Source of the DNA: Tardiphaga alba
GTDB taxonomy: Bacteria; Pseudomonadota; Alphaproteobacteria; Rhizobiales; Xanthobacteraceae
Length of the DNA: 64,000 nucleotides
Assembly (NCBI RefSeq): GCF_018279705.1
Contig: NZ_CP036498.1
Location: 5,597,001-5,661,000, forward strand
Reading direction: 5' to 3'
In this document: positions 15,176 through 60,396 of the stretch, one piece after another
How positions within the stretch are numbered: the first letter of the stretch is position 1
How the letters are laid out: each line of letters opens with the position of its first letter
Program-made: the position numbers and the translations under genes
The notes under the pieces: generated by a model
What the model saw: the letters and a program-made list of their open reading frames with translations, nothing else
What the model was told of the DNA's origin: nothing
The model's database searches: none

Positions 15176-15200
15176 GGAACCGCGCTTCGCTACTCTCGTT
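15176..15200 (+). promoter_or_regulatory. EcfG-type general stress promoter
   Basis: GGAAC (15176-15180), 17 bases, then GTT (15198-15200), with C before GTT so that it reads N16-CGTT, the alphaproteobacterial EcfG consensus. It is 26 bp upstream of the lysine-rich protein start. Confidence 0.65.
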
Positions 15201-15225
15201 GCCATTCTTTCAAGGAGGATTTTCA

Positions 15226-15486
15226 GTGGCGAAAAAGGCAAAGACATCGAAGAAGGCACCGTGGGACAAAGCTAACCCCAAGAAGAAGGCAGGCAAGAAG
15301 TCCAAGAAGCTGACGCCTGCCAAGAAAGCCAAAGCAAAAAAAGCAGCCAAGAAGGCCGGTCGCAAATATCCCAGCCTTGTGGACAACATGAACGCGGCGA
15401 AAGCAAAGAAGACGAAGAAGGCCTCGGTCAAGAAATCCGCCGCCAAGAAATCAAGGAAGGCCAAAACGAAGAAATCGGCCAAATAG
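15226..15486 (+). CDS. Lysine-rich basic protein, histone H1-like composition
   Basis: About 86 residues, nearly half lysine and alanine (AKKAKTSKKAPWDKANPKKKAGKKSKKLTPAKKAKAKKAAKKAGRKYPSLVDNMNAAKAKK...). The central KLTPAKKAKAKK..GRKYPSLVDNM segment is a recurring motif in small rhizobial proteins. The GTG at 15226 with AAGGAGG eight bases upstream is the start. An EcfG promoter precedes it, so it is likely made in general stress or stationary phase and may bind nucleic acid. That role is inferred from charge alone. Confidence 0.75.
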   Translation: MAKKAKTSKKAPWDKANPKKKAGKKSKKLTPAKKAKAKKAAKKAGRKYPSLVDNMNAAKAKKTKKASVKKSAAKKSRKAKTKKSAK

Positions 15487-15659
15487 ATTGATATCAAAAA
15501 ATAAGGGCGGGTGCTTGCGCGGCATCCGCCTTATCTTCGCAGCTCAAAGCCCATCCCGCTTCAGCGCCCGCTTCAAGCCACACTATCTTGGCAACGATGC
15601 GCCCGTCCGTAGCGATGCAGGTGTCACCGATAAGTCCGATCCGCATCGTGACGATATGC

Positions 15660-15800
15660 TCACGTGCCGATGATATGGAACAGCGCTGGCAGGCTAATGG
15701 CCAGCAATCCGAGCGTCACGATGCCAATCACCAGGCCTTCAGGCTCGTCCTTGTCCGGCGGGGGCTCCGGTCCAATTCGGTCGGTGAGTAATCCGAACAT
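15660..15800 (-). CDS. Tiny membrane protein (46 aa)
   Basis: Reads MFGLLTDRIGPEPPPDKDEPEG followed by one hydrophobic helix (LVIGIVTLGLLAISLPALFHIIG). GAGG lies seven bases before the ATG. Charged proline-rich head plus one transmembrane segment, as in other tiny membrane proteins of this window. Its start overlaps the 3' part of the upstream hypothetical gene. Confidence 0.6.
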   Translation of the reverse strand: MFGLLTDRIGPEPPPDKDEPEGLVIGIVTLGLLAISLPALFHIIGT

Positions 15801-16551: not shown

Positions 16552-17567
16552 CTATGGCTGCCCCGAACCTCCAGCCGAGCCATAGACCTGACCGGTGGCG
16601 TAACTGGCGTCCGCGGCGGCGAGCTGCACGTAGATCGAGCCAAGCTCGGCTGGTTGGCCCGCGCGACCAAGCGGCGTCATGCCGCCGAATTTCTCCAGTT
16701 TTTCCATGGTCGCGCCACCCGATACCTGCAGTGGCGTCCAGATCGGACCGGGGGCGACGGCGTTCACGCGGATACCCTTGGGCGCCAACTGCTTGGCCAG
16801 CGACTTCACATAATTCGTGGTCGCCGCTTTGGTCTGAGCGTAATCGTAGAGCTCGGCCGACGGGTCCATGGCCTGCTCGGACGACGTACCGATGATCACG
16901 GAGCCCGGCTTCAGATGCGGAAGCGCCGCCTTGATCGTCCAGAACGGCGCATAGATGTTGGTTTTCATTGTCGCGTCGAACGCTTCCGACGTGATGTCCA
17001 TGATCGACGCCTGGGTCTGCTGCCGGCCGGCGTTGTTGACCAGGATGTCCAGGCCTCCAAGGTCTTTGACAGCCTTGGCCACCATTTCCTGGCAGAATGC
17101 TTCTGAGCGCAGATCACCCGGAATAGCTACAGCGACCCGGCCTTCGGCCTTGATCAGCTCGATCACCTGCTTTGCGTCCTGCTCTTCGTCTGGCAGATAA
17201 TTGATGGCGACGTCGGCTCCTTCCCGCGCGTAGGCGATTGCCGCCGCGCGGCCCATCCCAGAGTCGCCACCGGTGATCAAAGCCTTCCGGCCATTGAGAC
17301 GTCCGGACCCCTTATAGGTCTTCTCGCCATGGTCGGGCACAGGATCCATATCGCTGGCGAGACCCGGCCACTTCTGCGACTGTTTCTTGTAGGGCGGCTG
17401 CGGATATTGCGTGCGGGGTCTTGCAGAGTTTTCGGAGCCATCGGAATCTGTCCTTGCGCGAATGCTGGTCTGGCGAACGCGGCGGCTGACAAGCTTATGC
17501 CTGCTGCGCCCACGACCTCTCTTCGAGTCACGGATAGCGGTGCGGAATACTTGTCGTTCGTCGGCAT
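16552..17567 (-). pseudogene. Tat-signal short-chain dehydrogenase with a frameshift
   Basis: The first frame from 17567 gives a twin-arginine signal (VTRREVVGAAGISLSAAAFARPAFAQGQIPMAPKTLQDP). A one-base loss in the G run at 17414-17417 shifts frame, and the next frame carries QYPQPPYKKQSQKWPGLASDMDPVPDHGEKTYKGSGRLNGRKALITGGDSGMGRA, then the catalytic YDYAQTKAA and the C-terminal TGQVYGSAGG. This is the YhdF-like SDR family (NAD(P)-dependent). In the second frame alone, 372 codons are open from 17670, but that N-terminus is not family-like. An EcfG-type promoter precedes 17567. Confidence 0.75.
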
Positions 17568-17591: not shown

Positions 17592-17616
17592 AACTCGCCT
17601 TCAATGCAATCGTTCC
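17592..17616 (-). promoter_or_regulatory. EcfG-type promoter of the Tat-SDR gene
   Basis: On the minus strand GGAAC (complement of 17612-17616), 17 bases, GTT (complement of 17592-17594), 25 bp before the Tat-SDR start. Confidence 0.55.
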
Positions 17617-17812: not shown

Positions 17813-18234
17813 GCGGATCGCTTACCCCGATTTGCCTTGAGGCCGGCAAACCATGACGCGTAGGACGTGTTCTTCACCATGTGCCTGTTGAGGTCCGGAT
17901 CGCCGTTCCCCCACCAGACCGCTCCGCGTTCGCCCAGCGCCTGCTTGGCGGCGTCCACGTCGCGATGCGCCGCAGCTTCCGCCTGTTCGTCGCCTGCCTG
18001 TTTGGCGGTCCTCACTGCCCGGCGCGCCCGCATGAGCTCCGATACGAGCGCAGACTTTTTTGCCTCTGGCAATGAGGGATCCGCCAGACGCCAGAGCCGG
18101 CCTTTCACGACAAAGTATCTGCCGTCCGGCGTCGAACGGGGCGGCCGCGACCCAACCGGCTCCGGTTTTGAATTCTCGCACGGAAAAACCATTCGGACGG
18201 TCGTGCCGAGCCCTTCCTCGGAGTAAATGCTCAA
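17809..18234 (-). CDS. Hypothetical protein with a histidine-kinase-derived N-terminus
   Basis: The body ([103 protein letters not shown]) is the same family as the broken copy at 10.4-10.7 kb. The first 19 codons ([18 protein letters not shown], from TTG 18234) are not part of that family. They match the last strands of a histidine-kinase ATPase domain ([19 protein letters not shown]). So the gene is fused to a kinase fragment, and its own start is lost or unclear. Function unknown. Confidence 0.55.
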
Positions 18235-18587
18235 TGGTCGGCATAGGGATCCAGTAGCAGCTTGTTGGGATTAAACCGGTGCCCGACATCAGGCTCGAAT
18301 GGGCCATGGACGCGGTATCCGTAGACAGTGCCTGGCCGAGCGTTTGGCAAGTAGCCGTGCCAAACTTCGTCGGTATATTCCGGGAGATCGACGCGTTCCA
18401 GTTCTCGGTCGCCCTTTTCGTCGAATAGGCAAAGCTCGACCCGCGTGGCGTGTGCGGAAAACAATGCGAAATTGACGCCCACTCCGTCCCATGTCGCACC
18501 TAGCGGGAATGGCTTGCCTTCGCGAATGACAGATCGCCGCAACCGCTGCACAGCCATTCGGAGCGGTTCGTTTGCCGTTCGTGTCAT
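18231..18587 (-). pseudogene. glgX: Glycogen debranching enzyme N-terminal fragment
   Basis: The frame from ATG 18587 (GGGGAT upstream) gives the GlgX N-terminal CBM48 domain: [93 protein letters not shown]. It stops immediately after, at the junction with the histidine-kinase fragment. GlgX enzymes have about 690-730 residues; the GH13 catalytic domain is entirely missing, so the product is not an active enzyme. Confidence 0.85.
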
Positions 18588-18963
18588 ATTGCGATCCCCG
18601 TGGCTTTCAGGCGGCCAATACCGTCCACGCCGCGCGCGGGCTGTCCGGCGGGATGCTATGAACATAATGGTGCTATGAAGAAATTTACTTCTGCGGCAGC
18701 TTGAACGGAACGCGCCTACAACCTCATGGTTCCTCAGCAGAATGAGCATTCCCAACGACAGGTTATGATTAAAGGAAAGTGCGTGAAGCGATCTACGAAC
18801 TGTCGATGTGGGGATGAGGGGTGTAGATGTCTCGCGTACGCAGTCCGTTCAGTAACACACCGCGGGCGTACGGTGATCCGCCGCGATGCGCATTCGTCGC
18901 CGCGGCCGCGCGGTAACGGAAAGCTTTCGTCGCGGTCGCCGATCAGATCCGCCGACATGTCGG
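18588..18963. other. Non-coding interval
   Basis: No frame on either strand looks coding. It separates two truncated genes (glgX and dnaE2) and probably marks deleted sequence. Confidence 0.45.
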
Positions 18964-23730: not shown

Positions 23731-23936
23731 TGCAAACCAAACTTGGGGCCGGCAGCCCACCTTGTTGGCGGTACGCATAACTCAGCGGCCTATGATGAGC
23801 GCATGTAATCCATAACCGAGACTTCGAGCTGCACGATGGTTTCGTAAGCGATGGGCTGATGTTCACCGCGAAATTCTCTGGAACATATTGCCGCACAGCA
23901 GCTTGTAGCGCGGGCAATGTCTCATGGAGGTTCACT

Positions 23937-24356
23937 ATGACTTTTCGTTTCAAATCGTTTGTCGCAGTCGCTGCTTTGATCGCAACCAGCCAGGTCGCAG
24001 TGGCTCAGGGCGTCCCCGGCGGCATGGAGCGTGGCGCCCGTGATGGCGAACGTGCAGCCGGTCCGGTAGGCGCTGCGGTCGGCGCGGCGGTGGGTGGTGT
24101 TGTCGGCGGCGTGGCTGGCGTGCTCGGTGTGGACGACCGTCCCCGCTTCCGCACCTACGTCCAAGGCCGCAACGTCCGCTCGTACTCCTATTCTGAGCCG
24201 GTCGCTGTTGGTACCGTGCTGCCCGCTGATGGCGTGACCTATTACGACGTGCCAGATGATTATGCTTCGGTGCGAGAATACCGCTTCACCGTCGTGAATG
24301 ACCGCACGGTGCTGGTCGATCCGCGTACTCGTCGCATTGTGCAGATCGTCGAGTAA
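23937..24356 (+). CDS. DUF1236 exported protein (copy 1)
   Basis: A signal peptide (MTFRFKSFVAVAALIATSQVAVAQ), a Gly/Ala-rich hydrophobic stretch (VGAAVGAAVGGVVGGVAGVLG, a possible membrane-inserting glycine-zipper), then the DUF1236 domain (VPDDYASVREYRFTVVNDRTVLVDPRTRRIVQIVE). TGGAGG precedes the ATG. The closest relative in this window is the gene at 49.2 kb. DUF1236 proteins are common periplasmic stress proteins in bradyrhizobia; activity unknown. Confidence 0.85.
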   Translation: MTFRFKSFVAVAALIATSQVAVAQGVPGGMERGARDGERAAGPVGAAVGAAVGGVVGGVAGVLGVDDRPRFRTYVQGRNVRSYSYSEPVAVGTVLPADGVTYYDVPDDYASVREYRFTVVNDRTVLVDPRTRRIVQIVE

Positions 24357-24606: not shown

Positions 24607-24631
24607 GGAACGCTCTAATTTAACTCTTGTT
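24607..24631 (+). promoter_or_regulatory. EcfG-type promoter
   Basis: GGAAC (24607-24611), 17 bases, GTT (24629-24631), 27 bp upstream of a small frame with a good ribosome binding site. Confidence 0.5.
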
Positions 24632-24657: not shown

Positions 24658-24852
24658 ATGAGCGAAGCGACGTTGATTTTCCCGAACATGCGCGGCGGCT
24701 GTGCAACTGTCGATGGCAAGGTGCACGCGCTCTTCCGTGTGAACGGTCGGCGGCCAGGTTTGAAGTCGCTGATGTCGTCAAGGGATCGAAAAGATCAAAC
24801 CCCATGCGACCAGTCAGCCCTGACAACCGACGGTGGCCCATCTGAGACATAA
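24658..24852 (+). CDS. Small hypothetical protein (64 aa)
   Basis: MSEATLIFPNMRGGCATVDGKVHALFRVNGRRPGLKSL... preceded by CAGGAG and an EcfG-type promoter at the right distance. The second half is hydrophilic and repetitive, so the true end could be earlier if a shift is present. Kept because the promoter, ribosome binding site and start agree. Confidence 0.4.
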   Translation: MSEATLIFPNMRGGCATVDGKVHALFRVNGRRPGLKSLMSSRDRKDQTPCDQSALTTDGGPSET

Positions 24853-28611: not shown

Positions 28612-28776
28612 CTATCCGCGGCCCTGGAGCAGATAGCTGTAGGTGCCAAGGACAGCCAAACCGCCCAAAACGAGCCAGACGACAAGACTGATCGTCAAGA
28701 CCTTGGCGGGAAACGGCGTGTGATCGTTCTGCGGAGTTTCGTGTTCGGCGACGGCCGTCTCATTGTGCTGTGGCAT
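28612..28776 (-). CDS. Tiny membrane protein (54 aa) under an EcfG promoter
   Basis: MPQHNETAVAEHETPQNDHTPFPAKVLTISLVVWLVLGGLAVLGTYSYLLQGRG: polar N-terminus and one C-terminal helix. It is a clear paralog of the protein at 39338-39499 (ALSIGLVVWIIAGGLAVLGVFSFLQSHG), and both have an EcfG-type promoter. It probably belongs to a stress-induced family of single-helix inner-membrane proteins. Confidence 0.75.
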   Translation of the reverse strand: MPQHNETAVAEHETPQNDHTPFPAKVLTISLVVWLVLGGLAVLGTYSYLLQGRG

Positions 28777-28820: not shown

Positions 28821-28845
28821 AACCGACGGCATCAATTGCCGTTCC
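28821..28845 (-). promoter_or_regulatory. EcfG-type promoter of the tiny membrane protein
   Basis: On the minus strand GGAAC (complement of 28841-28845), 17 bases, GTT (complement of 28821-28823), 45 bp before the start codon at 28776. Confidence 0.65.
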
Positions 28846-33740: not shown

Positions 33741-36374
33741 TCACAAAGGCAGCTTCGGCGTATCCAGAACCTCGCGAACTTTCTCGGCCAATTGGTCCAA
33801 TCCGTAAGGCTTGGCTAAGAAGTTGGTGCCGGGATCAAGGACGCCGTTGTTGAGCACGGCATTGCGTGAGTAGCCGGTCACATAAAGAACGTGCAACGAT
33901 GGTCGTTTCGCCAGCGCAAGATCGGCGAGCTGTTTGCCGTTCATTTCCGGCATGACGACGTCCGTGAGCAGTAGCGTGACAGGCTGATCGCTATCTAAAA
34001 TTTTCAGAGCTTCTCGGCCACTGGATGCCAGCAGAACCGTGTAGCCAAATTCACGAAGCGCTTCGACTGTCAGATTGCGGACGCGATCCTCGTCTTCAAC
34101 AACCAAGATGATCTCGTCGAGATTGCCTGTGCGACGCCCACCGACGACACGGCGAGGGACGGGCTGTGGCGCAACTCCCCAAAAACGCGGGAGATACAGT
34201 TTCACTGTCGTGCCATATCCAACCTCGGAATAGATCTTTACGTGACCGCCAGACTGGCGAACGAAGCCGAACATCTGACTGAGCCCGAGACCGGTCCCCT
34301 TGCCGACTTCCTTGGTCGTGAAGAAAGGATCGAACGCTTTCGCGAGGACATCGGCGTTCATCCCCGTCCCAGTATCCGTGATCGAGATCAAAACGTACTG
34401 GCCGACAGAAATCGACTGCTGCCTCGCGTACTCGTCGTCCACTGAGGCATTGCTCGTCTCCAGCGTCAGCTTTCCACCGTCCGGCATTGCATCCCGGCCA
34501 TTTACGGCGGCGTTGACGATCGTGTTTTCAAGCTGTCCGGGGTCGGCCTTGATATTCCACAAACCGACACCAAGCGCGGTTTCCAATTGAATGTTCTCGC
34601 CGAGCGTCCTTGCCAGAAGCTCGCTCAGGTTCATGACAAGTCGATTGACGTCGATTGCTTCCGGAACGAGCGGTTGCTGACGGGAGAAAGCTAACAGTCG
34701 CTGGGTGAGGTTCGCCGCACGTGTCGCCCCCTCAAGAGCGTTATCGATGTACCGGGTGATATTCGTCTCGCCACGGGCTAACCGTCTTTGAGCGAAGTTC
34801 AGTCCGCCGATGATGATCGCGAGCATGTTGTTGAAGTCGTGGGCGATGCCACCCGTCAGTTGGCCGATCGCCTCCATTTTCTGGAGCTGGCGAATTTGGG
34901 TCTCGGCATCGGCCTGCTGCCTTGCCAGCGCCTCGACTTGCGATGCGACATTTGTGAGCTCCGCAGCTTGCTGGTCCAGTTGATGGTTTAGACGCATAAG
35001 CGCTTCGGCTCGATCAACGGATACAGCAATAAGGCCCGCGACTTCACGCGCAAGCGAGATCTCTGCCTGGGTCCAGTGACGCACACTGGCATGATGGAGG
35101 TAGACGCCTGCAGACCAGCGACCGCCCTCCATCAGCGGGACGCAAATCCCTGCCAGAACCCCATCCTCGCCATATGGTGCGAGTTTGCCGTCGCTATCGT
35201 GGCGGCTATCACTGAAAATTAAGGTGCGACCGCTTCGTCGCTCACCTTCGGCGAATTGGCCGTATGCATCGAGCGGCTGATCGCCGACCAACGCCAGCAT
35301 GCTCCCGTTAGACCAGCACCCGACGTGCTGCAATCTTTGGGAATTTAACAGCCTGTAGAATCCGGCGCGATGAACCCCCAGCCTTTGACCGAGCGCCTCC
35401 ATTGAGAGCCGGATAATCGAGAGCGGATCAGTCACCGCTCTCTGGCGGTTGGTCAGCGCAATGACAAAGTCGCGCTCTTCCTTTGCGTTTCTGATCTCAA
35501 GCTCAGTATCAATGCGTTCGGTGATATCGAAGCTCACGCCTGGAAAACGAATGCATCGCCCCTCAGAGTCTCGGACGCAACGACCCTGGGCCGCGACCCA
35601 ACGCACCGTCCCGTCGGATCGCTGAAGTCGATATTCGGACCTGAAGATATCGGATGACTTGATTGCCGTATCGACCTCCGCAAGCACGCGCGGCCGATCA
35701 TCCGGATGTATTCCACTGAAGAACTCGGCGATTGGCGCTCCCGCAGCGGCTCGACTGGCATCAACGCCATAAAGCGCGGCAAAACGACCGTCTGCACGAA
35801 CGATGTCGTTTTCGACGTCCCAATCCCATGCGCCGATCGAATTGCCTGCAGAAAGCGCAAGTTGTAGCCGCTCGTCGGCGGCATCGCGGTCGCGCAGCGC
35901 AACGACCCCTGTGGTCGTTTCGTCGGTCACGCAAAACATGCCGTACGGCTGGCCATCGTCGTCGAAGACCGGCGAATAGCTAAAGGTCCAGTAGCTCTCT
36001 TCGGGCACGCCTTCACGACTGAGGTCGAGCCTCATATTCACAACGCGCGTATGACCGCCCGCAAGTGCTTCATCGACGAGCGGCGCGATATCGGACCAGA
36101 GGCTCGACCACAGTTCCGGGAACGGCTTTCCCAGCGCCGTCGCCTCCCGGTATCCGAGAAGCGGTCGGTAGGCGTCGTTGTAAAAAGATATGAGGTCTGG
36201 GCCCCACGCAACGTAAATCGGCGTCGGACATGCCAGCATCGTCGCCAACGTGTTCCGCAGCGATATCGGCCATTGCTCAATCGGGCCGAGTGAAGTCGCT
36301 CCCCAGTTGAAGGCGGCAATGTCAGCCGCCAATTGGCTTTTACTGTTACGGAGAAATGCAGGCAGATTGTTCAC
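33741..36374 (-). CDS. Hybrid sensor histidine kinase (PAS-PAS-GAF-HisKA-HATPase-REC)
   Basis: An 877-residue soluble hybrid kinase without transmembrane helices. Domains in order: PAS (about 30-160, [38 protein letters not shown]), PAS/PAC (170-290, ending [13 protein letters not shown]), GAF (300-455), a coiled coil (460-500), HisKA with [11 protein letters not shown], HATPase ([29 protein letters not shown]), and a receiver with D in [14 protein letters not shown] and K in FLAKPYG. It autophosphorylates and passes phosphate to its own receiver. It is downstream of the bacteriophytochrome on the same strand, 54 bp apart, suggesting co-transcription. Confidence 0.9.
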
Positions 36375-36428: not shown

Positions 36429-39011
36429 CTAACGGTCATCCGCACCGAACAACGTCGCAAAGGCGCGAGCGAGGTTTTCGACCGTGTAAGGCTTTTGCAC
36501 CACTTTGCGCGCACGGTGATCGGCTGGCATTCGGGCTTGCTCGCCATACCCGCTCGCGAAGAAAAACGGAACGCCAAGCTCGGCCAGACGGTCGGCGACC
36601 GGAAATGAATTGGCGTCGCCGAGGTTGATGTCTAGAACCGCGACCGACGGCTTCTCCCGGTCGATAGCATCGAGCGCGCCTTGCACGGTGGCATAGGTTT
36701 GCACTTCACGCGCCCCCAGTTGCGCGGCAATGTCCTCGACGTCGAGTGCGATGATCAAGCTGTCTTCGACCAGGAGCAGGGTCTTGTCGATCAGAACGCC
36801 GGGCGGTGGCAGCTTCTTGTGAAGTCCGCGGTTATCGTGTGTCTTGCCCCAGAGGTTCAGCTTGGGCCCTGCACTATTCTTGGCATCTACGACATGCCGC
36901 GCCGGGATGACAAACTCGAACTTGGCGCCGTCGGGATTGTATGTGGCCTTTGCCGCGCCTCCCAAATCGTATGGCACCGAGCGCTCGACGATCGTGGTGC
37001 CGAAACCCTTTCGGGTCGGCGGCTTCACTGGCGGCCCTTTAACGTCCTCCCATGTCAGCACAAGATCGCGGGCATTGGACCGATGCCATTCGATCTGCAC
37101 CTCGCCATTCGGCGTGGAGAGGCTTCCGTATTTGATGGAATTCGTCACAAGTTCATGGAGAACGAGTGCCAATGTCGAATAAGCGGCCGGATTGAGCAAA
37201 ACCGCGGGGCCATGCGCACGGATTGAGGACGGCCTGTTGGCGAATGCAGCCGCCTCCGCCGCAATCAGCGCTTCCAACGGCGCGGGTCCCCAGTGGTCGT
37301 CGGTGATCTGATTGTGCGCGCGGGCTAATGCGTGAATGCGGCCATCAACGACCTTCACGAATTCCTTAACGCCCGGCTCTTCTGGCTGCGATTGTCTTAT
37401 CAGACCTCGGATCACGCCCAGAATGTTGCGGACGCGATGATTGAGCTCTGCAATCAGAACTTCCTGTCGCGCACTGGCTTGATGCCTCTCGGCTGCTGCT
37501 TCGTCCGCGAGGCGCAACACGACTTCGATCAGGGTCGCACGCAATGTCTCGGCCACGCGCAATTGCGGCACTGTAAACGGCTCTGACCGCCCCTGAACGA
37601 GCTCCTTCCATTCCTCGAAGCTTTCTCGCGGCGTCAGACGAGGCCCATTCGGACCATACTCGACTGGCTTGTGCGGATCGCCTGCCCAGCGAACAGACTT
37701 GACCAGCTCAGATCTGAACAAGACCACGTAGTCTCGCGGGGACCTTGAGATCGGGATCGCGAGGAGTCCGGCGGCTTGCGAGGCGTACTCGTCAGCGCCA
37801 GGGACGATGGAAGCAATATGGTCGGTGGCGAAGATCTTCCCGGCTGCCATGCCGTTCAACGCACGAATGATGCGCCGAAACGCTTCGGTCGGGGGTGTGA
37901 CGCCGCTGAATGCATAATTGCCATTAAGCCAGACACCGACGCCGTCGGCAGGAATGGCGTGGGTCAGGATATCGGCAAGCCAATCAGGATCTTTGAGAAG
38001 CGTCTCGTCTGACGCGACGGCGCTGAGGAGCTGGTCGGAAATATCGCGTGCCCGCGCCTCGTATTGAATCGCGGCCTGCCGCTCGCGGCTTTCGAGTTGA
38101 AGCGAAAACATTTGCGTGAAAAGCTGGGCGACCGACCTTTTCTGCAACGGCGGGCAAAAGGCCGAATAGTGATGGCAAGCAATCAGCCCCCAGAGTTCGC
38201 CTTCTACGACGATTGAAATAGACAACGAGGCGCCCACGCCCATATTCTTCAGGTATTCGATGTGGATCGGAGATACCGATCTGAGCACGGACATCGAAAG
38301 ATCGAGTGGCCGACCGTCTTCGTCCCGTTCCGGAGTAACCGGGATAGCCTCGGCGTTCACGTCGGAGATGACGCGCAACAGATTACGCTTGTAAAGAGCT
38401 CGCGCCTGAACGGGGATGTCGCTGGCCGGGTAGCGAAGGCCCTTGAAGGTGCCGATGCCGCCTCGCACCGCTTCGCCAACGACCTCACCTGAGCCACCGC
38501 GGTCAAATTTGTAAATCATCACTCGGTCGTAACCGAGGTAGCCCCTCACCTGTCTCGCGGCTTCGCGGTAAAGAGCCGTGATGTCCGGCGTGTTGTCGAG
38601 GCGGGCGACCATCGACGTCACCATGGACGTTGTGTCACCCGCTGGCCCCTCGGAAGGCTGAGCTTCGATGACGATCTGACCGAACGACATGTGGAGGGAG
38701 ATATCGAAGGCGGGAGCGCCCTTTACGATGGAGCAGTGAAATAGTCGCTCCACGGCATCCGGTCCGCGCAGCGCCGTTATTCGGTTGCGCAGGTCATGGA
38801 TCAGCGATGCCGGAAAAATATCGGCAAGCGGTCTGCCGATCAGGTCTGCATGATCGTGCCCGATAAATTCGGCAACGTTGGCGGACGCCCGAGCAATGAT
38901 CCAGTCATTAGATGCGGCAAGGAGAAAGCCGATCGGCTGAATGGCGCCCAACAGGTGAATCGGCTCTTTGTCGCAATTGGTCAGATCCACCTGGGAAACA
39001 ATTTGGCTCAA
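36429..39011 (-). CDS. Bacteriophytochrome: PAS-GAF-PHY photosensor with HWE kinase and receiver
   Basis: An 860-residue red/far-red photoreceptor. The biliverdin-binding cysteine is C13 in DLTNCDKEPIHLLGAIQPIG. The GAF domain has the PASDIP motif near 196-201 and IACHHYS near 278. PHY shows VVLFRSE near 430 and the tongue motif PRESF near 461. The output is an HWE kinase (H525 in ELNHRVRNILGV, then WEDVKGPPVKPPTRKGFGTTIVERSV) followed by a receiver (LLVEDSLIIALDVEDIAAQL, D in AVLDINLGD, K in VVQKPY). All chromophore-contact motifs checked are present, so it is likely functional. An EcfG-type promoter lies 51 bp upstream. Confidence 0.95.
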   Translation of the reverse strand: MSQIVSQVDLTNCDKEPIHLLGAIQPIGFLLAASNDWIIARASANVAEFIGHDHADLIGRPLADIFPASLIHDLRNRITALRGPDAVERLFHCSIVKGAPAFDISLHMSFGQIVIEAQPSEGPAGDTTSMVTSMVARLDNTPDITALYREAARQVRGYLGYDRVMIYKFDRGGSGEVVGEAVRGGIGTFKGLRYPASDIPVQARALYKRNLLRVISDVNAEAIPVTPERDEDGRPLDLSMSVLRSVSPIHIEYLKNMGVGASLSISIVVEGELWGLIACHHYSAFCPPLQKRSVAQLFTQMFSLQLESRERQAAIQYEARARDISDQLLSAVASDETLLKDPDWLADILTHAIPADGVGVWLNGNYAFSGVTPPTEAFRRIIRALNGMAAGKIFATDHIASIVPGADEYASQAAGLLAIPISRSPRDYVVLFRSELVKSVRWAGDPHKPVEYGPNGPRLTPRESFEEWKELVQGRSEPFTVPQLRVAETLRATLIEVVLRLADEAAAERHQASARQEVLIAELNHRVRNILGVIRGLIRQSQPEEPGVKEFVKVVDGRIHALARAHNQITDDHWGPAPLEALIAAEAAAFANRPSSIRAHGPAVLLNPAAYSTLALVLHELVTNSIKYGSLSTPNGEVQIEWHRSNARDLVLTWEDVKGPPVKPPTRKGFGTTIVERSVPYDLGGAAKATYNPDGAKFEFVIPARHVVDAKNSAGPKLNLWGKTHDNRGLHKKLPPPGVLIDKTLLLVEDSLIIALDVEDIAAQLGAREVQTYATVQGALDAIDREKPSVAVLDINLGDANSFPVADRLAELGVPFFFASGYGEQARMPADHRARKVVQKPYTVENLARAFATLFGADDR

Positions 39012-39061: not shown

Positions 39062-39086
39062 AACGAGCACGGTCTCTGTCGGTTCC
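39062..39086 (-). promoter_or_regulatory. EcfG-type promoter of the bacteriophytochrome
   Basis: On the minus strand GGAAC (complement of 39082-39086), 17 bases, GTT (complement of 39062-39064), with C before GTT: a full GGAAC-N16-CGTT consensus, 51 bp before the start at 39011. Confidence 0.65.
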
Positions 39087-39280: not shown

Positions 39281-39305
39281 GGAACGCTCATTGCTTTTGA
39301 CGGTT
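39281..39305 (+). promoter_or_regulatory. EcfG-type promoter
   Basis: GGAAC (39281-39285), 17 bases, GTT (39303-39305), 33 bp before the tiny membrane protein gene at 39338. Confidence 0.65.
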
Positions 39306-39337: not shown

Positions 39338-39499
39338 ATGGCATCCGAAGAAACTTCTCTCGTTGCATCGCATGAAACACCTGCAACGGATCGAACCCCG
39401 GGCCCCGCAAAAGCCCTATCGATTGGCTTGGTCGTCTGGATTATCGCCGGCGGTCTCGCTGTTCTCGGCGTTTTCTCGTTTCTGCAAAGTCATGGCTGA
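39338..39499 (+). CDS. Tiny membrane protein (53 aa) under an EcfG promoter
   Basis: MASEETSLVASHETPATDRTPGPAKALSIGLVVWIIAGGLAVLGVFSFLQSHG. Polar head, one C-terminal transmembrane helix. Paralog of the protein at 28612-28776. AAGGAC precedes the ATG and an EcfG-type promoter lies upstream. Probably a stress-induced inner-membrane protein; function unknown. Confidence 0.75.
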   Translation: MASEETSLVASHETPATDRTPGPAKALSIGLVVWIIAGGLAVLGVFSFLQSHG

Positions 39500-39605: not shown

Positions 39606-41128
39606 TTGTCTCGGAAACTGAAATTGACCAATCAGCGTGAGCACGACCGACTTGTTTCCGAGCTATCTCGGCACGGTCGAACCACAGACCCCTTCGCGGC
39701 CGCCGTTCAGGCGACCCGCATGCCAATGCTGATCACCGACCCTCATCAGCCAGACAACCCAATCGTCTTCGTGAATGATGCGTTCACAAGGCTTACAGGC
39801 TACTCGCGCGAAGAAATTCTCGGCCGTAACTGCAGATTTCTGCAGGGGCCCGAGACGAAACCAGCGCTTGTCGGACAGATACGGTCGGCGATCGAGCGCC
39901 GCGTGCCGATCGAGATCGAGCTTCTCAATCATAAGAAAAGCGGCGAGATTTCTACAATCGTCTACTCATCTCACCGGTATTCGACGAAGAAGGACAGCTC
40001 ACTTACTTCTTCGCATCGCAGTTCGATATCACGCTCGAACGGGATCGCTTTGTTCGTGTTCGGCAGGACCGCGACGCGCTTGAAGACGAGATCGAACGTT
40101 GGAATGAAGATCTTCGCCGTCGCGAAGCAAAGATGGAGTTCATGCTTAAGGCGGGCCGATTTGGAACGTGGACGCTTGACCTCGCTGACCGTCGGCTCGT
40201 GGCGTCCGATATCTGCAAGGAGAATTTCGGGCGCAACGTGACGGACCCGTTTTCCTATCCGGAGTTGCTAGAAGCAATCTTCCCGGAGGACCGAGCGCGG
40301 ATGGAAGCCACCGTCGCGGAATCGATCGGAAATGGCATTGACTACGACATCGAGTATCGGGTGGTCACGCCATCCCGCGAGATCAGATGGGTTCAAATTC
40401 GCGGGAAGACCTTCTATCGCGCCGACGGGACACCGTTGAGCATGGCTGGCGTTTCAATCGACATCACTGCCAGGAAAAGGGGCGAAGAACATCGCGCGCT
40501 TCTGGCTGGTGAACTGAACCATCGCGTCAAGAACTCGATGGCAACAATGCAGTCGATTGCCTATCAGACGTTTCGTTCGGCGGGTTCTCTCGAAGAAGCA
40601 AGAAAGAGCCTGGAATCCCGCCTGCAGTCTATGGCGGTTGCGCATGACGTCCTCACCCGCGAAAACTGGGAGGGCGCGACGATGGCTGAAGTTGTCGATA
40701 ACGCCCTCCTTCCGTTCCGAACCAAGAGCGGTTCACTCATCAGCACGGTCGGGCCCGACCTTCGCTTGAATCCTCGCTCGTCCATCGCCTTCGCAATGGC
40801 GTTGCATGAGTTGGCCACGAACGCAGCAAAGTATGGCGCGCTGTCAGGTGATATCGGCCGGGTCATCGTAAATTGGGAGATCGTGACCGGGAACGGCGCA
40901 GATCAGGTCGAATTGCGATGGGAAGAAATCGGCGGTCCTCCCGTCAAGCCACCTACCCGCACCGGCTTCGGCAGCCGGATGATTGAGCGCATACTAAATG
41001 CTGAAATCGGCGGTTAGGCAAAAATTGACTATCGCCCACGAGGTGTCGTTTGCGTCATCAAGACGCCGCTCGACAACCTGCGACACGACGCCAATGAAAT
41101 GCTCGCGGTGAAACCTGCGCGGACATAG
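39606..41128 (+). pseudogene. LOV-PAS-HWE histidine kinase, degraded
   Basis: The first frame holds a LOV domain with the flavin-binding cysteine ([58 protein letters not shown]). At about 39948 a base is missing; the next frame continues [33 protein letters not shown], a PAS domain and an HWE kinase (ELNHRVKNSMATMQSIA). An in-frame TAG at 41015 interrupts the C-terminal GG-AKIDYRPRGVVCVIKTPL. A shift plus a nonsense codon indicate a true pseudogene of a blue-light sensor kinase. An ATG at 39572 in another frame may be the original start, implying one more shift. Confidence 0.8.
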
Positions 41129-41657: not shown

Positions 41658-41751
41658 GATGACCTCCATGAGCCGGCCCTCACTTGTGCGGCAGGCTGCC
41701 GCACAGGTTCATCGCGCGAGAAAATAGAAATGCATTCGCATTTCAGAAGAG

Positions 41752-41780
41752 TGTCCGCTTTGCGCCATCAACGGACATTG
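41752..41780. repeat. Palindromic repeat, intact copy
   Basis: TGTCCGCTTTGCGCCATCAA followed by CGGACATTG; the ends TGTCCG and CGGACA are inverted. Related copies: 8910-8923 plus 10150-10166 (split by IS30), 60456-60480 and 63224-63250. This copy sits exactly where the bacteriophytochrome fragment loses homology. Confidence 0.7.
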
Positions 41781-43866: not shown

Positions 43867-43891
43867 AACACTGCCACTTGCCACTTGTTCC
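43867..43891 (-). promoter_or_regulatory. EcfG-type promoter of the small exported protein
   Basis: On the minus strand GGAAC (complement of 43887-43891), 17 bases, GTT (complement of 43867-43869). The surrounding CCACTTGTTCCCGATTT recurs at the promoter near 60392. Confidence 0.65.
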
Positions 43892-44287: not shown

Positions 44288-44683
44288 TTACTTCGGATAC
44301 TTAAACTCTGGAGCAGCCTTCAACGCTTCCTTGGTCGTGTTCATCTTCGCGACCCACTTATTCGCTTTGGCATCATGGGTGATCGCAACCGATGAAGGTG
44401 AGACGGCCACGTAGCGCTCACCGACGCCCAGGAAGCCACCCACGGACAGGATCAGGGCATCGATGCGTTCTCCCTTGAGAGCGACATCGGAAATCTCACC
44501 GACCGTTTCGTCCTTCTGGTTCGTGATGTTCAGACCCTTGAGCTTGGACGAGAACATCTCATCCTTCGAAACCGAGGAGAACTTTGCTTCGGCGGGGGCC
44601 GCACCCGTCGTTTTCGCGGTTTCCGCGAACGCAGCGGTCGAGAAAACGGCGGCGGCGGCGACGATCGGCAAAATCTTTTTCAT
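44288..44683 (-). CDS. Exported PRC-barrel protein
   Basis: A signal peptide (MKKILPIVAAAAVFSTAAFAE) then a PRC-barrel-like domain (FSSKLKGLNITNQKDETVGEISDVALKGERIDALILSVGGFLGVGERYVAVSPSSV). PRC-barrel proteins bind partners or RNA; the exported form is typical of alphaproteobacterial stress regulons. A GTTCC upstream gives only a one-mismatch EcfG site. A terminator follows. Confidence 0.85.
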   Translation of the reverse strand: MKKILPIVAAAAVFSTAAFAETAKTTGAAPAEAKFSSVSKDEMFSSKLKGLNITNQKDETVGEISDVALKGERIDALILSVGGFLGVGERYVAVSPSSVAITHDAKANKWVAKMNTTKEALKAAPEFKYPK

Positions 44684-44797
44684 TAGGAATCTCCCTGTTT
44701 GAGGTTCCTTTCAAGTCTCCGGATTGCAACAAGTTCCCGACCATTCTAAACAGTCATTGGAATTGGTACATCGCATAAGAAATTGTTAGCTCTCGCC

Positions 44798-45146: not shown

Positions 45147-45171
45147 GGAACAGATCGCCGAAAGATCCGTT
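45147..45171 (+). promoter_or_regulatory. EcfG-type promoter
   Basis: GGAAC (45147-45151), 17 bases, GTT (45169-45171) with C before GTT (GGAAC-N16-CGTT), 72 bp before the anchored protein gene at 45243. Confidence 0.65.
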
Positions 45172-45242: not shown

Positions 45243-45443
45243 ATGCCAGTCGGCCGATATTTTCTCTTCGTAGGAAGCGCCCTGCTCTCCCTTCTGTTTT
45301 TGGCGGACGCCTATCTTCCGAAGCCTCCCGCGAGCCCGACAAGAGCCGAGATCGACAAATCAAGCATCAGAATTAAGTCCGCGAACACCGGTCCCACGCC
45401 GGTGGTGATTGAAGCTGCCGGCGGTGGCCGGTCAGGACTGTAG
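45243..45443 (+). CDS. Small membrane-anchored protein (66 aa)
   Basis: MPVGRYFLFVGSALLSLLFLADAYLPKPPASPTRAEIDKSSIRIKSANTGPTPVVIEAAGGGRSGL: an N-terminal anchor followed by a periplasmic tail with the ...DKS.IRI.SA...P..VV pattern, a recurring small protein type in Bradyrhizobium. Under a full-consensus EcfG promoter. Function unknown. Confidence 0.7.
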   Translation: MPVGRYFLFVGSALLSLLFLADAYLPKPPASPTRAEIDKSSIRIKSANTGPTPVVIEAAGGGRSGL

Positions 45444-48363: not shown

Positions 48364-48555
48364 TTAGTGCCGGTGGCGATGCTTGATAATCACGACCTTC
48401 TTGGACGGACCGTGGCGATGCCACCCGCCATGATGGTGATGGCCGCCGCTCTTCTTGATGATGACGGTTTTGGCTTCGGCCTGGGTCGTGATGGCCATGG
48501 GCATAACGAAGCCGACGGTGGCAAGGGCGGCTAGTCCGAGAACGATCTTTCGCAT
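48364..48555 (-). CDS. His-rich exported protein
   Basis: Signal peptide (MRKIVLGLAALATVGFVMPMAITTQAEA) and a short mature part (KTVIIKKSGGHHHHGGWHRHGPSKKVVIIKHRHRH) with ten histidines, suggesting metal binding. AAGGAG precedes the ATG at 48555. A palindrome lies 77 bp upstream. Similar His/Gly/Arg-rich exported proteins occur at 51868 and 52259. Confidence 0.75.
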   Translation of the reverse strand: MRKIVLGLAALATVGFVMPMAITTQAEAKTVIIKKSGGHHHHGGWHRHGPSKKVVIIKHRHRH

Positions 48556-48631
48556 TTCCATCTCCTTGGGAACTTACATCGGGAAAATGCGGTAATAGCT
48601 CTGGCGTTCCTCGGCATAAACGCTGAATTTT

Positions 48632-49090: not shown

Positions 49091-49206
49091 CGGGAAAGCG
49101 TGGCAAGCGGTTCAACTCTCGATCGCAACCTTACTCTACATTGAACGGAACATTTTGTTGCACCTGCACTTAGGATCCCGGGCAATACATGCATCTGGAG
49201 GATTAA

Positions 49207-49626
49207 ATGTCTACATACTTCAAAGGTTTCGTTGTTGCGGCTACCGTGGTTGCTTCCACTTCGTTCGCCATGGCGCAGGGTGTCCCTGGAGGGATCGAGC
49301 GCGGGGCTCATGAGGGCGCACGCGCGGCAGGCCCGGTCGGCGCCGTGGTCGGCGCTACGGTTGGTGGCGTCGTGGGCGGAGTGGCTGGCGTCTTGGGTGT
49401 CGATGACCGTCCGCGCTTTCACCGTTACGTGGCCGATCGCCACATCCGCTCATACACCTATGCGGAGCCGGTCGCCGTTGGCACCGTTCTCCCGTCGGAC
49501 GGCGTGACCTATTACGACGTTCCGGACGACTACGCTTCGGCCCGCGAATATCGGTACACCGTCGTGAACGATCGCACGGTGCTTGTCGATCCGCGGTCGC
49601 GACGGGTTGTCCAGATCATCGAATAA
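49207..49626 (+). CDS. DUF1236 exported protein (copy 2)
   Basis: A close paralog of the protein at 23937-24356: signal peptide (MSTYFKGFVVAATVVASTSFAMAQ), Gly-zipper stretch (VGAVVGATVGGVVGGVAGVLG), and DUF1236 domain (VPDDYASAREYRYTVVNDRTVLVDPRSRRVVQIIE), nearly identical in the C-terminal half. GGAGG precedes the ATG. Periplasmic or outer-envelope stress protein; function unknown. Confidence 0.85.
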   Translation: MSTYFKGFVVAATVVASTSFAMAQGVPGGIERGAHEGARAAGPVGAVVGATVGGVVGGVAGVLGVDDRPRFHRYVADRHIRSYTYAEPVAVGTVLPSDGVTYYDVPDDYASAREYRYTVVNDRTVLVDPRSRRVVQIIE

Positions 49627-51816: not shown

Positions 51817-51841
51817 GGAACGATTGCATGTTTTTCCCGTT
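51817..51841 (+). promoter_or_regulatory. EcfG-type promoter
   Basis: GGAAC (51817-51821), 17 bases, GTT (51839-51841) with C before GTT, 27 bp before the exported protein gene at 51868. Confidence 0.65.
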
Positions 51842-51867: not shown

Positions 51868-52116
51868 ATGAAGCGCATATCATGCTTGGTCGCCGCGGTT
51901 TCCGCGATGACAATTCTTGGTCCCCTCACCGCCAGCGCACAGGATGTACGCATACGCGTAGGCGACGACCGGGGCTACGTTCGCCATCACGACCATGGAT
52001 TTCGCGGTTCACGCGCGGAGTATTTCGCCGGGCATGATCGCGGTTGGCATCGCGGCTGGCGCAATCGGGATCGTACCGTGATCATCAAGGAGCGGCGTCA
52101 CCGCCACTGGGATTAA
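51868..52116 (+). CDS. Exported His/Arg-rich protein (82 aa)
   Basis: Signal peptide (MKRISCLVAAVSAMTILGPLTASAQ) then DVRIRVGDDRGYVRHHDHGFRGSRAEYFAGHDRGWHRGWRNRDRTVIIKERRHRHWD, with the VIIKERRHRHWD ending typical of short basic exported proteins in bradyrhizobia. AGGAGAA precedes the ATG and an EcfG promoter lies upstream. Possible metal or surface binding. Confidence 0.75.
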   Translation: MKRISCLVAAVSAMTILGPLTASAQDVRIRVGDDRGYVRHHDHGFRGSRAEYFAGHDRGWHRGWRNRDRTVIIKERRHRHWD

Positions 52117-56439: not shown

Positions 56440-59148
56440 ATGAAGCCATATCGCGCTCACCTTTTAGCGACGCTTGTCGTAGCCCTAGCGGCAGCGACTG
56501 GAATCGCCGCATCGCTGTTTAATTTTGCGGCCGATTGGCGCTTCTCCATGACCTCCCGCGCGCCGACGGGCAATATCGCTTTGATAGCTATCGACCCACA
56601 CTCAATCGAGGCAATGGGGGCCTGGCCCTGGTCTCGATCCATCCACGCCGATCTCATCAGAAAGCTCGACGCGATTGGTGTCAGCGATATCGTCTTCGAC
56701 GTTGATTTCAGCTCGCCGTCAACGCCAACCGCTGATGACGACTTGGCTCAAGCGATTAAACAGTCGAGCAGTTCAGTTGTCCTTCCAGCGTTTCAACAAT
56801 CGAAAAGGAGTAGTTCGCCCTCTGTCCACGACAACCTGCCAATTCCTCTTCTCGCGGCTGATGCATGGATCGCTTCGGCAAGCGTCAAAGTCGGAAAAGA
56901 CGGCCGCGCGCGGAAATACGATTACTCCGATCGAATTGGAACCAACCTGATCCCCTCCATCGCAACGGCTATGTCCGGAAGCGGTACAATCTCAAAGCCA
57001 GCCTTCTACATCGACCACGGTATCCGTTTCCGTGAAATACCGATGTTTTCCTATTCAGATGTACTCGATGAGAACTCAGTGTCACGCTTGAGCCTTCGAG
57101 GAAAGAAGGTCCTGATCGGTGGAACAGCCATAGAACTTGGAGATCGCTTCAGCGTACCCAACGCGTCCGTTCTGCCAGGCCCATTGCTGCAAATTCTCGC
57201 CGCTGAATCGATCACTCAAAACCGCGCATTGTCAGCGACATCTTGGGTGGTCAGCCTGGCGGGCGTGATCCTATCGATCATTGCGATGATGTATGTTTGG
57301 CCTCGAACGTCTGCGATGAGGCGGCTTATACTCATTGCTTTTGTTTCCGTCGCCGTCGAAGTTATCGCGCTTTGCATCCAAAACTACATCCCAGTGATCG
57401 CAGATACATCATTGCTGCAGATTACCTTCGCCGCCTACTTACTTGCGATCGCCCTTCAGGAAATCGACGTCCGGGGATTGATGACGCGTGTGGCGGAGCG
57501 AAGATTCCGTCGAATTGCGATGTCGATGGGCGACGCGCTCATCTGCATGGACGCGAATTTGCGCATCACAATCTGGAATCCCGCGGCCGAGTCAATTTTT
57601 GGCTATCTGTCGGTCGAGATGATCGGACGTTCATTCAGTGAATTGATGTCGGAATCAGGAGACTCGAACGCGATCTCGCACGTCACTGCCGACCTCGTTG
57701 GCGGCAACAACCGACGCCTCGTCGAGTTCCACGGCGTCCGAAAGGATGGACAGAAATTCGATGCTGAGGCTTGCTTTTCGTCATGGGAGGATACTGACGG
57801 CCTGAGCTATGGTGTCAGCCTCAGAGACGTTTCGATCCGGAAGAGAGAAGCCGAGAAAATCAAATACTTGGCAGACTTCGACTCCTTTACCGGCCTGCCC
57901 AATCGGCATCAAATTGAACGACGCGTTACAGAACTGCTGGCAAAGAAACGTCAACTTTGCCTTTTCGTCGTGCGGGTGAACAGAGTATCCGACACTAGTG
58001 TAATTTTCGGACCTTCATTCAGCGGCGAGTTGATCAAAGCAGTCGGCAGCTCACTTCGTCATCAATTTCATGAGGATCGATACTTTTTAGGTCGCATCGG
58101 CGATGAAATGTTCGCGTTGCTGGCGAGCGATTGCAGTTCAGAGGCTGCACCAAATGTTGCGGCAAGGGTAATGGCCCTCTTCAACACGCCATTGCAGGTT
58201 GGCGGAAGATTGCACCAAGCCCACGTTCGTATCGGCGCAGCAGACCTGCCTGAACATGGAGCATCGACCGAGGTCGCCTTCGCTAATGCCTATATCGCCT
58301 TGGATAAGGACAAAGCTGACGGGGCGGCGAATTTCTATGAAGCGCGAGACCGCGCTCTTGTCGAAAAGCGTCTCGCTACCGAGGCAGATCTGGTTCGAGC
58401 TCTGCAAAACGATGAGTTTGAGCTCTTCTATCAGCCGCAAGTTTGCCTGGACAGCAAACGAATAATCGGCGCTGAAGCGTTGATTAGGTGGCGCCATCCC
58501 GTGCGAGGACTTGTGCCTCCGATTGATTTCATTCCAATTGCAAACGCGACGGCGGTTTCGGTCGGAATGTCGCGCTGGGTTGTGGAGACTGCATGGCGAC
58601 AAGCAAGTCGTTGGGCGGCAGCGGGCCATGAGATACGCATGGGCATCAACCTGTCACCCTGCCAATTTTCAGATGGTTCGCTTAGCGTGCAGGTCGAGGC
58701 GCTACTGCACGCCGCTCCCATACGTCCAGACCTTATCGAGTTTGAGGTTACAGAAGACATTCTCCTTGACGACGAAGTCCAGGCCAAAAAAGCGATTGAG
58801 AGATTAAAGCGAAGCGGTGTGCGACTTGTCTTTGACGACTTTGGGACCGGGTTTGGCAGCCTCAGCTATTTGAAATCCTTCCCTCTCCACGGACTGAAAA
58901 TTGATCGATCGTTCGTGAAGGACGCTCTTTCATGTGAGAGCGATCGCACGATTGTTAGATCGGTTATCAGCCTCGCGGAAGGGCTCGATCTCTCAGTGAT
59001 TGCTGAAGGGATCGAGGATGCGGCGACCGCCGATCTCCTCTTAGCAATGGGTTGTCGCGAAGGGCAAGGTTACTTCTTTGGCAAACCATGCCCCGCAGAT
59101 GAGTTCGAACGCCTTCTCATGACCGCCGCCGGGTCCATTGCAGCTTAA
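56440..59148 (+). CDS. CHASE2-PAS-GGDEF-EAL protein (c-di-GMP turnover)
   Basis: A 902-residue membrane protein. N-terminal helix, a CHASE2 sensor domain outside the membrane (about 30-275; VFDVDFSSPST...VLIGGTAIELGDRFSVPNASVLPGPLLQILAAESI), three transmembrane helices (275-350), a PAS domain (365-480), GGDEF (490-640) and EAL (650-900). The GGDEF site is degenerate (RIGDEMFAL instead of GGDEF), so cyclase activity is unlikely. EAL motifs are intact (EALIRW, DDFGTGFGSLSYL, KIDRSFV, EGIED), so it should hydrolyse c-di-GMP. It follows the FecR gene by 21 bp. Confidence 0.9.
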   Translation: MKPYRAHLLATLVVALAAATGIAASLFNFAADWRFSMTSRAPTGNIALIAIDPHSIEAMGAWPWSRSIHADLIRKLDAIGVSDIVFDVDFSSPSTPTADDDLAQAIKQSSSSVVLPAFQQSKRSSSPSVHDNLPIPLLAADAWIASASVKVGKDGRARKYDYSDRIGTNLIPSIATAMSGSGTISKPAFYIDHGIRFREIPMFSYSDVLDENSVSRLSLRGKKVLIGGTAIELGDRFSVPNASVLPGPLLQILAAESITQNRALSATSWVVSLAGVILSIIAMMYVWPRTSAMRRLILIAFVSVAVEVIALCIQNYIPVIADTSLLQITFAAYLLAIALQEIDVRGLMTRVAERRFRRIAMSMGDALICMDANLRITIWNPAAESIFGYLSVEMIGRSFSELMSESGDSNAISHVTADLVGGNNRRLVEFHGVRKDGQKFDAEACFSSWEDTDGLSYGVSLRDVSIRKREAEKIKYLADFDSFTGLPNRHQIERRVTELLAKKRQLCLFVVRVNRVSDTSVIFGPSFSGELIKAVGSSLRHQFHEDRYFLGRIGDEMFALLASDCSSEAAPNVAARVMALFNTPLQVGGRLHQAHVRIGAADLPEHGASTEVAFANAYIALDKDKADGAANFYEARDRALVEKRLATEADLVRALQNDEFELFYQPQVCLDSKRIIGAEALIRWRHPVRGLVPPIDFIPIANATAVSVGMSRWVVETAWRQASRWAAAGHEIRMGINLSPCQFSDGSLSVQVEALLHAAPIRPDLIEFEVTEDILLDDEVQAKKAIERLKRSGVRLVFDDFGTGFGSLSYLKSFPLHGLKIDRSFVKDALSCESDRTIVRSVISLAEGLDLSVIAEGIEDAATADLLLAMGCREGQGYFFGKPCPADEFERLLMTAAGSIAA

Positions 59149-59214
59149 TTCGTCTGGAGCTGCAGCATCCATGTCGATCCGACGCGAAACTTGTAATCCC
59201 TTGTACGAGGAGGT

Positions 59215-60341
59215 TCAGAGCTCGGGCGTCTTAGACCCGTAGATCCATTCGCGCCAAACGGTTAGAGCGGCCGCCATAATGACCGGTCCGAGGAATAGCC
59301 CGAACAACCCAAACGCGGCTATTCCTCCAAAGATTCCGACAAATGCTAAAAGAAATGGCAGACGCGCTGAACCGCCGACTAACGTAGGCCACACGAAATG
59401 ATCGCCGGCAAGCATCACCGTAGCGCCCCACAGAAACACCGCCACGGCCGCGACACCGCTCCCGCCGCCAGTGACCAGAACTATTGCTGCGGCGGTGAAC
59501 GCCAGCCAGGCCCCGAACGGCAACAGCGCGAATGCTGTCGTCAGTACAGTGAACATCAGGGGGTTGGGCACGCCAGCGGCGACAAACCCAGCTCCGATAA
59601 GAAGCCCTCGCCAACGGCGACAAAAACTGTTCCGTTGACGGTGCCGCGAGTTGCTTCGACCATTTTTCCAACAAGCCCTTCTCCCGCATCGCCGAGAAGG
59701 CGATCGCAGGTTTCCAGGAAGCGCCTTCCAACGGCTCTTCCGTTACGAAGCAGAAAAAACAAAGCAAGAAGCGAAAAAAGCATGAGTGAGAAGCGGTGAA
59801 GTAGTTGCGCCCCGAAAGTCTTGAGTAGATCCGATGCGTTGTCCGCGTTGACGGTCTGAAGCCACGCGGCTGCGGCCTTTGGATCCGACAAATTGGTGCG
59901 CCACCAAGTCTGCAGGCTTTCTGCGGCGACGGGTAAACGCGCAATCCATTCAGGAACCTGAACACCGCTCTCCCGTGCTTGTTTCAGCCAACTGACGAAA
60001 AGGTCACTCTGTTGAGCTATCTGGTAAATCGCAAGCGAAATCGGGGTGAAGAGCGCCAATGCAACGAGTGCAGTGAAGAAAAACGCTGCGATGCTTGACT
60101 TGTCCGAAGAAAACCAGCCCGCGAACTTGAGGTATAGAGGCCATAGTGCAACAGCGATAATTGTTGCCCATATCAATGACGGCAGCAAAGCCCACGCAGT
60201 CCACACTCCAAAGGCAAAAACGATAAGGGCGAGCACAACTCGGGAATTCATCCGGGCCGCGGCGTCAAGGGGGAGCGGCTGCCTTTCTTGATCGCCGAAG
60301 AACTGATCTGTTTCCGGCTCCATCCTCGTTTTCTGTAACAT
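59215..60341 (-). pseudogene. AI-2E/PerM-family transporter with a frameshift
   Basis: The first frame gives MEPETDQFFGDQERQPLPLDAAARMNSRVVLALIVFAFGVWTAWALLPSLIWATIIAVALWPLYLKF...TVNGTVFVAVGEG. Restoring one G in a GGGG run near 59602 continues LLIGAGFVAAGVPNPLMFTVLTTAFALLPFGAWLAFTAAAIVLV...GLFLGPVIMAAALTVWREWIYG, the expected AI-2E C-terminus. Combined length would be about 375 residues. An EcfG-type promoter precedes it. Start 60341 or 60323. Confidence 0.8.
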
Positions 60342-60371
60342 TTAGCGCGGCCCCGTCATGGTTCTCATAAA

Positions 60372-60396
60372 AACATGACAGATTTCCACTTGTTCC
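60372..60396 (-). promoter_or_regulatory. EcfG-type promoter of the AI-2E transporter gene
   Basis: On the minus strand GGAAC (complement of 60392-60396), 17 bases, GTT (complement of 60372-60374), about 31 bp before the start. It shares CCACTTGTTCCCGATTT with the promoter at 43887. Confidence 0.65.

Follow-up and report, generated by a model that had tools for sequence, protein, structure and literature searches.

Predicted EcfG-type promoters in a gene-poor stretch of the Tardiphaga alba genome, among them one before a bacteriophytochrome gene

Motif sites and genes in the window

The stretch of DNA analyzed here, referred to as the window, comprises 64,000 nt of the forward strand of Tardiphaga alba (GCF_018279705.1, NZ_CP036498.1, positions 5,597,001-5,661,000). 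It holds 15 exact matches to GGAAC-N17-GTT, which are listed with their neighboring genes in Table 1, and all but one of them, 57706(-), are intergenic. A preliminary description of this DNA had counted ten such sites. Each of the ten exists and is oriented toward a possible start codon 25 to 72 nt downstream, but the count was short by five, namely 10763(-), 15058(-), the overlapping palindromic pair 18707(+)/18709(-), and 57706(-). The genes it had named as targets do stand behind sites, but those for the AI-2E transporter and the Tat-SDR protein look frameshifted or truncated.

Table 1. Motif sites and associated reading frames, in window coordinates
Feature	Position	Strand	Remarks
EcfG-type site	10763..10787	-	before broken 28-aa ORF 10634-10720(-), which by eye resembles an ORF at about 17.8-18.2 kb
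Exact site	15058..15082	-	171 nt before Mfd/TRCF-like helicase gene 11573-14887(-); weakest case by position
Site	15176..15200	+	26 nt before lysine-rich protein
Lysine-rich 86-aa protein	15226..15486	+	GTG start; no Pfam match
Site	17592..17616	-	25 nt before Tat-leader ORF
ORF with Tat-like leader	17277..17567	-	SDR domain follows in another frame
SDR dehydrogenase domain (PF13561)	16552..17349	-	frame differs from that of Tat-leader ORF
Site	18709..18733	-	palindromic partner 18707-18731(+); 122 nt before CBM48 ORF
118-aa ORF	18231..18587	-	CBM48 (isoamylase N-terminal) domain
Variant site GGAAC-N17-CTT	23880..23904	+	32 nt before DUF1236 protein 23937-24356
Site	24607..24631	+	27 nt before 64-aa ORF 24658-24852(+), no Pfam match
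Site	28821..28845	-	45 nt before 54-aa single-TM-looking protein 28612-28776(-)
Hybrid kinase	33741..36374	-	PAS-PAS-GAF-HisKA-HATPase-receiver; directly downstream of bacteriophytochrome
Bacteriophytochrome	36429..39011	-	PAS_2-GAF-PHY-HWE_HK-receiver; receiver score just below Pfam cut-off; full length
Site	39062..39086	-	before bacteriophytochrome
Site	39281..39305	+	divergent; 33 nt before 53-aa protein; LOV-like and HWE-kinase ORFs next on same strand
53-aa single-TM-looking protein	39338..39499	+	by eye resembles protein 28612-28776
LOV-like PAS ORF	39606..40241	+	NCRFLQ motif
PAS_3-HWE histidine kinase ORF	40142..41017	+	frame differs from that of LOV-like ORF
Site	43867..43891	-	44 nt before exported-looking 75-aa protein 43596-43823(-)
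Variant site GGAAC-N17-CTT	44713..44737	-	29 nt before PRC-barrel protein 44288-44683(-)
Site	45147..45171	+	72 nt before 66-aa ORF 45243-45443(+); ribosome-binding site not clear
Variant site GGAAC-N17-ATT	48586..48610	-	30 nt before exported-looking 63-aa protein 48364-48555(-)
Variant site GGAAC-N17-CTT	49147..49171	+	35 nt before DUF1236 protein 49207-49626
Site	51817..51841	+	27 nt before exported-looking 82-aa protein
Exported-looking 82-aa protein	51868..52116	+	reading frame
Exact match	57706..57730	-	inside CHASE2-PAS-GGDEF-EAL gene; treated as background
Site	60372..60396	-	before AI-2E family gene
AI-2E transporter, N-terminal ORF	59556..60341	-	261 aa; C-terminal part in another frame, 59215-59742, by match to relatives

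The divergent sites 39062(-) and 39281(+), about 200 bp apart, separate the bacteriophytochrome gene from a pair of ORFs for a LOV-like domain and an HWE kinase. The first of these contains NCRFLQ, which we take to be a LOV-typical motif, and the two overlapping frames (39606-41017(+)) are possibly one split LOV histidine kinase gene. The CBM48 ORF looks like the beginning of a truncated GlgX-like gene, the name being given by eye. The look-alike small proteins at 28612-28776(-) and 39338-39499(+) each lie behind their own EcfG-type site, and the former has no Pfam match. The helicase at 11573-14887(-), of 1104 aa, is possibly a second Mfd.

Spacing of the motif

The 15 exact matches compare with a mean of 1.63 in shuffled sequence (standard deviation, 1.23), and none of 100 shuffles reached 15. 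Spacing 17 is the enriched feature, because the same two boxes at each of the spacers 12-16 and 18-23 give only 0 to 5 matches. With up to one mismatch allowed, spacer 17 gives 72 matches in the window, the 15 exact ones included, versus 33 to 49 at nine other spacers. Four further sites have CTT or ATT as the -10 box and the 17-nt spacer, 29 to 35 nt before starts at 23937, 44683(-), 48555(-), and 49207. For ATT the spacer control is clear (5 matches at spacer 17 and 0 to 2 at eight other spacers); for CTT it is not clean, spacer 14 giving as many matches as spacer 17 (5 each). Individual sites, 57706 and 15058 for example, may be chance matches. For the group as a whole, an origin in chance or base composition is refuted by the shuffles, the spacer control, the intergenic position, and conservation in relatives, and we give this explanation almost no credence even though raw genome-wide counts of the motif equal those of a reversed-pattern control.

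Low coding density and broken genes

The window is unusual in composition, with a GC content of 57.4% versus 61 to 64% in nine background stretches and a coding density of 58% versus 82 to 91% (44% versus 75 to 91% at a stricter setting), as called by a simple gene caller that undercounts small genes. The background stretches, placed at round-number positions, were chosen when 183 of the 190 exact sites in the genome had already been located; their zero N17 sites are accordingly not used as a test, and they serve only for coding density and intergenic share. Several genes in the window look broken, four of them site-bearing. The AI-2E gene is split relative to its close relatives, three of which have single open frames of 381 to 383 aa, and inspection by eye suggests splitting or truncation of the Tat-SDR gene, the LOV-like kinase, the CBM48 ORF, and the 10763 ORF. 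The Tat-SDR gene looks frameshifted, a judgment made by eye with no relative for comparison. Either mutation or assembly error may account for the split genes. We rejected a genomic island bounded by tRNA, as neither the window nor two 20-kb flanks contain a tRNA gene. An IS30 family transposase gene (8982-10142(+)) and a gene for a putative DNA modification/repair radical SAM protein (TIGR03916; 19297-20577(-)) also lie in the window.

Because some of the targets are broken genes, some promoters in the window may serve nothing. A stronger form of this idea is that the region is decaying, with relic promoters in front of genes that have ceased to matter. The low coding density, the split or truncated genes, and a bacteriophytochrome fragment at 41709-42293 are what such decay would leave. 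Against this, several of the small site-bearing genes have intact frames, the bacteriophytochrome is full length, a simple gene caller undercounts small genes, and relatives share the promoters of the 82-aa protein and the phytochrome, as described below. We consider general decay unlikely, though deserving of some weight.

Regulators of the general stress response

Model and similarity searches found no match to NepR, PhyR, or the nepR-linked sigma factor within the 64-kb window, as had been claimed from the sequence. The core system lies together at about 4.902-4.906 Mb, 0.7 Mb from the window, and comprises phyR, nepR, a sigma gene of ecfG type, and a CHASE-domain HWE kinase; the idea of a block of targets rather than a regulator locus is borne out. 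PhyR has PF22029, PF22233, and a receiver domain and scores above the NF006623 cut-off. NepR (PF18557) has a single match in the genome, at 4903087, which is above the Pfam cut-off and below the NCBIfam equivalog cut-off. The adjoining ECF sigma factor matches NF009192 with 388 bits against a cut-off of 307, a model named just "RNA polymerase sigma factor"; its position next to nepR and phyR makes it the putative EcfG. Both nepR and phyR have a one-mismatch site 91 nt upstream and no exact match. A second stress sigma factor is encoded in the window itself, where an RpoH-family sigma-32 gene (1507-2955(-); above the TIGR02392 cut-off) adjoins an Hsp20 gene.

The arrangement resembles known EcfG systems as far as these are set out in the parts of the literature available to us. 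There, the conventional motif is GGAAC-N16-CGTT with a flexible -10 box (Sphingopyxis granuli, PMC7083833), EcfG-regulated genes with putative sites include Ku, PRC-barrel, and GlgX (Sphingomonas melonis Fr1, PMC6599016), and the partner switch and locus layout, with phyR divergent from nepR-ecfG and a kinase nearby, are as outlined in PMC8103513. The T. alba genome encodes PhyR, NepR, and the predicted EcfG, has the same promoter type at fixed spacing upstream of genes, and shares targets with the published set, at least in its available part (Ku, PRC-barrel, GlgX), gene names outside the window being assigned mostly by eye. It differs in that many predicted targets lie close together in one gene-poor region and in that the putative core promoters are weaker matches. 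The EcfG stress programme itself is already known, and the window sites are of the same kind.

We conclude that the window sites are very probably promoters of EcfG, the sigma factor of the alphaproteobacterial general stress response, as predicted from motif, spacing, and regulator genes. We infer EcfG binding and transcription at the sites, and a partner switch working as in the species studied. Under stress, HWE kinases would phosphorylate PhyR, which would then sequester NepR and free EcfG to initiate transcription at GGAAC-N17-GTT sites. Of the 15 exact sites in the window, about 12 to 13 would be switched on together with up to four that have weaker -10 boxes, in a gene-poor region of lower GC content that holds about a tenth of the predicted EcfG promoters of the genome.

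The same motif could instead be read by another ECF sigma factor of the genome, alone or with EcfG. The nearest candidate, at 5028926-5029387, is 39% identical to the nepR-linked factor and possibly a second EcfG-like factor; in a comparison of sigma2 regions it scores 59 bits with the PhyR_sigma2 model versus 48 bits for the nepR-linked factor, and the one-mismatch sites before nepR and phyR also leave room for a second reader. However, the ORF after its gene has the look of an ordinary membrane anti-sigma factor (by eye), searches located neither a NepR nor a PhyR gene next to it, its own sigma2 region being the sole PhyR_sigma2 match there, and the motif, its spacing, and the targets agree with what is published for EcfG. 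Such a reader seems improbable to us, and we retain EcfG as the factor acting at these sites.

Distribution in the genome and in congeners

The genome, a single contig of 5.86 Mb, contains 190 exact sites and 198 matches to the reversed pattern, and the reversed pattern is the more frequent in 17 of 17 congeners. We therefore rejected the raw genome-wide count as evidence of enrichment; the genome-wide signal is seen only through spacer and intergenic position. Positions were available for 183 of the 190 sites (100 of 107 in one set and 83 of 83 in the other), the seven others all lying beyond 5657396. The preliminary description had proposed comparing a genome scan with start codons, and had held that equal frequency of the motif inside genes would speak against the regulon. 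With the exact pattern and a simple home-made gene caller, 141 of 184 sites examined (of the 190 counted) are intergenic, and 99 of those 141 have a start within 150 nt, 10 of the 99 falling in the window. Because 141 of 184 sites are intergenic, we regard the window as a portion of an ordinary regulon comprising roughly 100 promoters. In 22 large stretches, 54 of 59 N17 sites are intergenic versus 40 of 90 for eleven other spacers combined; eight of these stretches were picked by their sites, which biases the N17 total upward and may also bias the intergenic fraction, several of the picked stretches being gene-poor. The 39 N17 sites in those eight are not usable as evidence, given how the stretches were picked. 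Elsewhere in the genome the motif fronts genes that, on inspection of their N-terminal sequences by eye, look like Ku, LigD, DUF892, PRC-barrel, KaiC-like, and OtsA-like genes.

Motif density is higher in the window than in any other 64 kb of the genome (14 sites after merging of overlapping pairs), and under a uniform null the maximum in 5000 simulations was 13 (the seven sites beyond 5657396 excluded). When intergenic length is allowed for, with the genome's intergenic share extrapolated from the nine background stretches, the excess is 2.8- to 3.0-fold (P of 0.0006 to 0.0012 for the window alone, uncorrected for its being the best of about 90 windows). We therefore rejected clustering as a strong regional effect, the excess having come down to about 3-fold. 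The scarcity of genes in the region accounts for part of the block's density, and of the window-wide regulon block first described, the site excess is real but amounts to only about 3-fold given so much intergenic DNA. A second dense stretch, at 2547877-2594871, has 12 exact sites in 47 kb, several before genes for ferritin-like (by eye) and small proteins.

Four 20-kb stretches of congeners, selected by their AI-2E gene and not by motif, contain 5, 5, 5, and 3 N17 sites, 17 of the 18 intergenic, whereas any other spacer gives 0 to 3 matches in a given stretch. For the 82-aa protein, an almost identical promoter (51817 in the window) is present in three of the four (G017, G001, and G016), and DUF1236-type homologues have exact sites in G017 and G016. 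Before the AI-2E homologue, an exact site is present in G017, the spacer is 18 in G001 and G016, and no exact site precedes the gene in G006. The analysis catalogs nearly all predicted EcfG promoters of a Bradyrhizobiaceae genome that is uncharacterised, and such promoters also precede homologous accessory genes in congeners.

The motif before bacteriophytochrome genes

The recurring site before the bacteriophytochrome gene is the part of the block most worth experiment. An in-genome paralogue, 75% identical (1745286), and a homologue in congener G012, 76% identical, each have a site just upstream, and the G007 homologue (74%) has a one-mismatch site upstream; the G015 homologue begins at a contig end. 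The genome's third phytochrome (42%, 2258863) has no site among the positions listed. Among more remote phytochromes from the genus, family, and order (about 40 to 55% identical; loci L025-L043), an exact site shortly precedes the gene in L043 only, with L030 and L039 having little or no upstream DNA.

A wider survey took the best 80 of at least 583 phytochrome relatives in named genomes, 79 of them with enough upstream DNA. Ten of these 79 have an N17 site in the gene direction within 320 nt upstream and 69 have no exact site; in the same place, spacers 18 and 21 occur once each and nine others not at all. On the opposite strand upstream, N17 is found in 2 and any other spacer in 0, and a 340-nt piece inside the gene gave no match at any spacer. 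Among these best 80 of at least 583, the ten comprise 6 of 6 Caulobacter homologues, 1 of 3 in Brevundimonas, 1 of 5 in Novosphingobium, 1 of 2 in Bradyrhizobiaceae, and one in Sphingomonas (236 nt away), and no Rhizobium homologue has a site. The Bradyrhizobiaceae record is probably the same as the G012 homologue, a congener. In the six Caulobacter sites both boxes are kept and the spacer sequence varies; the species are related and do not represent six independent events. With the motif before 6 of the 6 Caulobacter homologues examined, control of the bacteriophytochrome by EcfG/SigmaT becomes a testable link.

A precedent exists in Caulobacter crescentus, where SigmaT directly regulates lovK and lovR, both of which have its motif, according to the available part of PMC4438053, which also links LovK to PhyR. 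As there, the gene in T. alba encodes an HWE-family kinase with a light-sensing domain and has the stress sigma motif. The photosensor with the recurring motif is here, in contrast, a bacteriophytochrome with a C-terminal receiver, and the neighboring LOV-like kinase lies in two frames, with phosphotransfer putative only. By analogy with LovK, the recurrence of the phytochrome site suggests that a light sensor feeds back into the stress response. A literature search of titles and abstract openings, weak in covering few subscription journals, found no paper tying a bacteriophytochrome to EcfG.

We tentatively propose, as a conjecture with somewhat less than an even claim to be right, that EcfG/SigmaT recurrently targets the red-light HWE-kinase bacteriophytochrome in several alphaproteobacterial groups (Bradyrhizobiaceae, Caulobacter, and some Brevundimonas and Novosphingobium) and that this kinase acts back on PhyR, forming a red-light counterpart of the LovK loop. 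The divergent pair of sites shared with the LOV-like kinase would then link both light colors to the stress response at a single place. The genome has two heme oxygenase genes elsewhere. The bacteriophytochrome fragment on the minus strand of the window is 77% identical to residues 28 to 184 of the intact protein.
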